Assembly: GCF_001676785.2 (NCBI RefSeq)
Contig: NZ_CP015910.2
Span: 1,116,001 to 1,180,000 of the forward strand
Length of the DNA: 64,000 nt
Direction of reading: 5' to 3'
Source of the DNA: Brachyspira hyodysenteriae ATCC 27164
Lineage (GTDB): Bacteria > Spirochaetota > Brachyspiria > Brachyspirales > Brachyspiraceae
Of the stretch, positions 58,604-58,712 are shown in pieces. The translations under genes were made by a program, and so were the position numbers. Position 1 is the stretch's first letter, and each line of letters starts with the position of its first letter. The notes under the pieces were generated by a model. The model did no database searches. It had not been told where the DNA came from and worked only from the letters and a program-made list of their open reading frames with translations.

Positions 58604-58631
58604 TTGACTTTTATATGATTTTATATATAAT
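58604..58631 (+). promoter_or_regulatory. Promoter of the candidate small RNA
   Basis: TTGACT (58604-58609), 16-bp spacer, TATAAT (58626-58631), beginning 28 bp after the dnaA stop. Confidence 0.6.
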
Positions 58632-58637
58632 TACAAC

Positions 58638-58712
58638 GTATTGTTAAATTAATACAATTTTTCATAAACCTCCTTATCACCCTGATGTCTTTATCCAGGG
58701 TGATACTTTTTT
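58638..58712 (+). ncRNA. Candidate small RNA with anti-Shine-Dalgarno motif
   Basis: About 75 nt between a good promoter and a strong terminator, with no ORF. It folds as a small AT-rich hairpin (ATTGT/ACAAT), a single-stranded stretch containing ACCTCCTTA (58668-58676), and a terminator with a perfect 10-bp stem (58675-58684 with 58696-58705) followed by CTTTTTT. ACCTCCTT is the anti-Shine-Dalgarno tail of 16S rRNA, so the RNA could pair with ribosome binding sites. It could alternatively be only the dnaA terminator with a chance promoter. Confidence 0.5.
58675..58712 (+). terminator. Terminator of the small RNA (and of dnaA)
   Basis: Perfect 10-bp stem TATCACCCTG/CAGGGTGATA, 11-nt loop, T run. 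Confidence 0.85.

Follow-up and report, generated by a model that had tools for sequence, protein, structure and literature searches.

A conserved small-RNA gene between dnaA and grpE of Brachyspira hyodysenteriae, with a seed that points to pairing with translation initiation regions

What is encoded in the short interval between dnaA and grpE of Brachyspira hyodysenteriae ATCC 27164? The interval was analysed within a window of 64,000 nucleotides (nt), which is the whole stretch of DNA under study (positions 1,116,001 to 1,180,000 of contig NZ_CP015910.2) and to which all coordinates below refer. A previous sequence-only reading had proposed for it a candidate small RNA that displays the anti-Shine-Dalgarno (anti-SD) sequence. 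We conclude with high confidence that a real, conserved small-RNA gene is present at 58604-58712, and an independent gene of this kind is by far the best reading of the conserved promoter, body and terminator taken together with the homologs that lie apart from dnaA, as had been proposed. That the small RNA is expressed and acts by pairing is what we infer, and it is probably a trans-acting translational repressor.

The small-RNA gene and its conservation

The promoter TTGACT-16-TATAAT of the sequence-only reading is present, with the −35 box at 58604-58609, the −10 box at 58626-58631 and 11 of the 12 consensus bases, and it is the top-scoring plus-strand promoter-like site within 56000-61000. 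Because the DNA is AT-rich (42 promoter-like sites observed and 33 expected from shuffling), a lone site of this kind is not significant. Its hexamers are constant across all the 23 genus copies described below, with the spacer varying, and the diverged homologs also show TTGACT and a −10-like box. The start of the RNA is placed about 6-8 nt past the −10 box and its 3' end within the U-run, and this region of about 75 nt has no sense open reading frame (ORF). It ends, as had been claimed, in a terminator, which consists of a 10-base-pair stem (58675-58684 with 58696-58705) followed by CTTTTTT; a simple terminator scan gave 0 terminators at the locus, because loops of this length fall outside its range. 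Folding of 58636-58712 gives −19.8 kcal/mol, with a z score of −5.7 versus shuffles. It also reveals a 5' hairpin, which is absent from the earlier description, and leaves the linker between this hairpin and the terminator stem unpaired with a probability near 1 except at the stem entry. The anti-SD had been placed just 5' of the terminator stem, which is true of ACCUCC, single-stranded in the linker, but not of the terminal UA of ACCUCCUUA, which in Brachyspira forms the first pairs of the stem; the word ACCTCCTTA occupies 58668-58676.

Searching 26 Brachyspira genomes at the DNA level produced 23 strong matches, with one copy per genome and an identical order of parts, and the suggested check for conservation in the genus turns out positive. 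In the genus alignment 57 columns are invariant, the stretch from the 5' hairpin through TTTTTCATAAACCTCCTTATCACCCTG is nearly unchanged, and the variation lies in the promoter spacer, the terminator loop and both flanks. Between the window and the distant Brachyspira copy L021, the RNA body is identical in 46 of the 48 aligned columns, and the neighbouring stretches (dnaA end, upstream spacer, downstream stretch) in about 56-63%. Within the genus the RNA follows dnaA at about 30 nt, on the same strand, the named relatives also having it behind dnaA; grpE comes next in 22 of the 23 copies, the contig ending in the remaining one.

Diverged homologs were found in a deep Brachyspira (G001) and in two other genera. 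The copy in G001, a weak covariance-model match, is directly upstream of grpE, with a different gene in place of dnaA; the copies in the second genus (G065 and G073) came to light when the sequence preceding grpE was read in members of the family, and that in the third genus (G146) was located through the word ACCTCCTTA. In neither of these two genera is dnaA upstream. The G146 copy is free-standing, with the adjacent frames pointing away from it on one side and toward it on the other (directions read by eye) and with grpE on a separate contig. Because there are homologs with no upstream dnaA, one of which is free-standing, the RNA would be neither a tail of dnaA nor a leader of grpE; the position between dnaA and grpE given previously thus holds in the genus, but family-wide the RNA either accompanies grpE or stands alone, and a link to dnaA is not kept.

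All the four diverged copies retain AACCUCCUUAU, and CAUAAACCUCCUUAUC is exact in G073 and G146. The terminator stems of all four differ in sequence from the genus stem, and the 5' hairpin is of other sequence in three of them (L183, L184 and L196), with no clear counterpart in L134. Model R2 was built with the copies of G001, G065 and G073, so that their scores (E 2e-9, 6e-8 and 1e-6, respectively) are partly by construction. An exact CATAAACCTCCTTATC occurs in 25 of the 29 family genomes versus 0 of the 364 other Spirochaetota genomes sampled, and model R1 gave no homolog outside the family in the phylum sample. One-mismatch matches in other Spirochaetota were rejected, those inspected being without a terminator and resembling coding or other sequence.

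The conserved seed and its predicted targets

Read as its reverse complement, the conserved stretch is GATAAGGAGGTTTATGAAAAA, in which a Shine-Dalgarno (SD) sequence is followed, after a short spacer, by a start codon and then an A-run. The anti-SD of the sequence-only reading is therefore there, but the conserved seed is wider, complementing the SD sequence, the spacer, AUG and AAA. For an anti-SD, CCUCC or so would suffice, yet the constancy reaches further; this points to pairing with initiation regions as a whole and to an anti-translation-initiation-region RNA.

We propose that the housekeeping promoter would yield a transcript of about 75 nt, which would fold into two hairpins with the exposed linker UUUUUCAUAAACCUCC(UUAUC). 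The linker would pair with initiation regions resembling GAUAAGGAGGUUUAUGAAAAA, and the pairing would block 30S binding, leading to lower translation and probably to lower mRNA stability. The A-run half of the seed may steer the RNA to mRNAs that start with AUGAAA, mostly those of exported or outer-membrane proteins.

Targets were predicted for a sample of 396 genes, taken from the window and 400 kb of spread stretches and amounting to about 15% of the genome. Against their initiation regions the real seed gives a median of −8.25 kcal/mol, versus a shuffle mean of −6.4, and beats 100 of 100 shuffles. Signal-peptide-like starts make up 34% of the best target decile versus 15% of the rest (p 0.003). 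When the seed is split, the UUUUUCAUAAA half carries the exported bias (p 2e-10), whereas the anti-SD half or the 16S tail gives none (p about 0.7), and the bias is lost when only the anti-SD is used or when the U-run is substituted. The bias comes from the UUUUUCAU half because exported-like genes commonly begin with ATGAAR (53% of them versus 12% of others). Exported proteins as the target class are thus a plausible hypothesis from predicted pairing. The top sampled target, at G000:C1:1702589-1703317, is a secreted, beta-barrel-like surface protein of 242 amino acids (aa), with a predicted pairing of −21.5 kcal/mol; its relatives, at about 28-35% identity, include a strong candidate in G009 and two further sampled genes, and one of these related proteins weakly resembles an outer-membrane beta-barrel family, with a score below the cut-off.

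The sequence-only reading had also expected binding to the ribosome binding sites of many mRNAs. Partial pairing is predicted, and because perfect extended targets are rare this has to be understood as partial pairing to a subset; the suggested target prediction gave the shuffle result and the exported bias, but no single obvious target. A single full-length target was rejected for the lack of another exact AAGGAGGTTTATG and of a clear excess of near matches over the reversed pattern. The perfect AAGGAGG-ATG sites, which are rare, with 45 in the genome itself, were also considered as a conserved regulon and rejected, the orthologs sharing such sites having no common theme. It is noted separately that paralogous short genes (MSELVKEKPIMEEV...) at L089, L110 and L141, and at L357 and L371 in G009, have in common a strong ribosome-binding site that is TAAGGAGGTTATWATG or nearly so.

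Several points weigh against a conserved repressor that acts by pairing. The alignment of the 23 genus copies contains no compensatory changes, because there is so little variation, and the structural support comes from the between-genus replacement of stems, read by eye because the between-genus alignments are poor. The G146 copy is not picked out by model R2, having been found by a seed word and away from synteny. The G001 copy is decayed, with neither the anti-AUG nor a clear 5' hairpin, and the RNA was not found in G003 (a draft, 88% complete) and G019, where no listed ACCTCCTTA site has a promoter and a terminator. On the target side, the p values share one crude procedure for gene starts and for 'exported' labels (hydrophobicity), the predicted bias follows from exported proteins starting with MK, there is no second exact AAGGAGGTTTATG in the genome itself, and near-perfect seed complements genome-wide are not clearly enriched over the reversed-pattern control. 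Based on the absence in G003 and G019 and the decay in G001, the RNA would be dispensable in that lineage; the three cluster in the GrpE tree with moderate support (80/74), which fits a decay of the small RNA within one lineage.

Alternative explanations and known systems

The alternative that survives best, though we hold it improbable, is that the linker mimics the 3' end of 16S rRNA and serves as a protein-binding site or as a sink for a ribosome-associated factor instead of pairing with mRNA. This would explain why ACCUCCUU equals the 16S tail and why the conservation is stronger than any single predicted target explains, but the conserved CAUAAA and the U-run are absent from the 16S tail and yet fit AUG and the A-run, and no protein candidate is known. 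Somewhat less likely again is that the element works in cis as a leader (an attenuator or 5' untranslated region) of the grpE-dnaK operon, its terminator being read through under some conditions. With the exception of G146, every copy with a readable next gene has grpE downstream, including those that dnaA does not adjoin, which agrees with such a leader; against it stand the free-standing G146 copy itself, the lack of any visible sequence in the RNA with which the terminator arm could pair instead, and a separate sigma54-like promoter just before grpE.

That the element is only a conserved terminator or 3' tail of dnaA, with the RNA as a by-product, is very unlikely. Given its place behind dnaA on the same strand it may also terminate the dnaA mRNA, but the small RNA has its own conserved promoter, and the invariant unpaired linker is not required by a terminator, whose own stem varies freely; the homologs with other upstream neighbours in G001 and the two further genera largely refute this explanation. 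Finally, a small peptide encoded on the minus strand is the least likely of all. On that strand AAGGAGGTTTATGAAAAATTGT does read as a perfect SD and ATG with a 14-codon frame (MKNCINLTIRCNYI), but it is the plus strand that has the conserved promoter; the frame is shifted by a one-base deletion in the L019-L023 group and varies in length (14 aa here versus 32 aa in G009), and the other genera give very short frames quite unlike it, with no ATG in G065.

The independent small RNA, by contrast, has the features general to such RNAs: its own promoter, an intrinsic terminator, no conserved ORF and a conserved accessible seed. Its closest design appears to be that of the streptococcal csRNAs, in which an unpaired linker flanked by two stem-loops contains both an anti-SD and an anti-AUG (PMC3091779); these RNAs are controlled by CiaR and repress by pairing to comC mRNA (PMC3091779, PMC4507080). 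The likeness, which is one of architecture, lies in the short length, the stem-loops at both ends, the unpaired linker with an anti-SD and a CAU anti-start codon, and the U-run terminator. The differences are that the Brachyspira RNA is single-copy while the csRNAs have several siblings, that it belongs to a different phylum, and that its seed runs on into an anti-A-run. The CiaR direct repeat has the form TTTAAG-N5-TTTAAG, and inspection by eye of 58577-58640 found no repeat of this type.

In rhizobia, NfeR1 (alpha-r14) and AbcR1/2 have an ultraconserved unpaired anti-SD with varying stems and several periplasmic transport targets, and NfeR1 is Hfq-independent and carries the CCUCCUCCC motif on three hairpins (PMC10746234). 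The Brachyspira RNA shares with NfeR1 the constant anti-SD and the varying stems; it differs in having a single ACCUCCUUA fused to the anti-AUG, and it has only two hairpins and no CCUCCUCCC. The earlier comparison with C-rich regulatory RNAs of Gram-positive bacteria is also apt: RsaE/RoxS and FsrA of Firmicutes are C-rich trans-acting RNAs that use an unpaired C-rich seed against the SD sequence and often need no Hfq, with other seeds and structures than those found here. In Rfam 15 no family is above the gathering threshold, the best matches being at chance level (E 1.8 and 2.3) and on the opposite strand. A search for Hfq detected no gene in the 26 Brachyspira genomes, the control search being positive in five known genomes. 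The open-access papers searched mention neither this RNA nor any other regulatory small RNA from the genus. The RNA is a new family of an already known kind.

Features of the locus and proposed role

Features of the small-RNA locus and of the region toward dnaK, with the terminator stems of the diverged copies
Feature	Position in window	Strand	Basis or remark
Sigma70-type promoter TTGACT-16-TATAAT	58604-58631	+	Consensus match; hexamers kept in 23 genus copies
Small RNA, about 75 nt	58636-58712	+	Fold z −5.7; body nearly invariant in 23 genomes; single covariance-model locus in own genome
5' hairpin GTATTG-TTAAAT-TAATAC	58638-58655	+	Folding; AT-rich
Conserved seed UUUUUCAUAAACCUCCUUAUC	58658-58678	+	Complement of GAUAAGGAGGUUUAUGAAAAA (SD, spacer, AUG, A-run); invariant in 23 genus copies
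Intrinsic terminator, stem TATCACCCTG / CAGGGTGATA and U-run	58675-58712	+	Folding
Rewritten terminator stem, L134			TCCCACTG/CAGTGGGA
Rewritten terminator stem, L183 and L184			AACCCTGC/GCAGGGTT
Rewritten terminator stem, L196			GAGGTCGG/CCGACCTC
Palindromes TGTATAAAAATAATACA, two identical copies	58768-58784 and 58802-58818		Between small-RNA terminator and grpE
Sigma54-like promoter TTGGCACATTTATTGCA	59012-59035		Before grpE
Conserved 69-aa protein	59717-59926		Between grpE and dnaK; no Pfam match

Three further observations concern the region beyond the terminator. Boxes similar to the sigma54-like promoter (TTGGCA...TTGC) are present before grpE in L180, L182, L185 and L186, and by eye in L181, L183 and L184, which suggests RpoN control of the grpE-dnaK operon. 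Palindromes similar to TGTATAAAAATAATACA are upstream of grpE in L180, L182 and L185, and they are possible activator or repressor sites. Equivalent to the 69-aa protein, L134 has a frame of 66 aa at the corresponding place.

As to the role of the RNA, we tentatively consider a more specific possibility, which at present seems less likely than otherwise: that a family-wide, Hfq-independent RNA, usually beside the DnaK chaperone operon, treats the mRNAs of exported proteins as one class, recognised through their AUGAAAAA start and not through a target site particular to each, and thereby tunes envelope-protein synthesis. The seed would then be a fixed complement of the SD sequence, of AUG and of the lysine codons at the start of signal peptides. 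If such class recognition is true, one short RNA selects secreted proteins by how their genes begin. Brachyspira are gut spirochaetes that include disease-causing members, and the RNA described here would be the first conserved regulatory small-RNA candidate for the family, apparently one that works free of Hfq.
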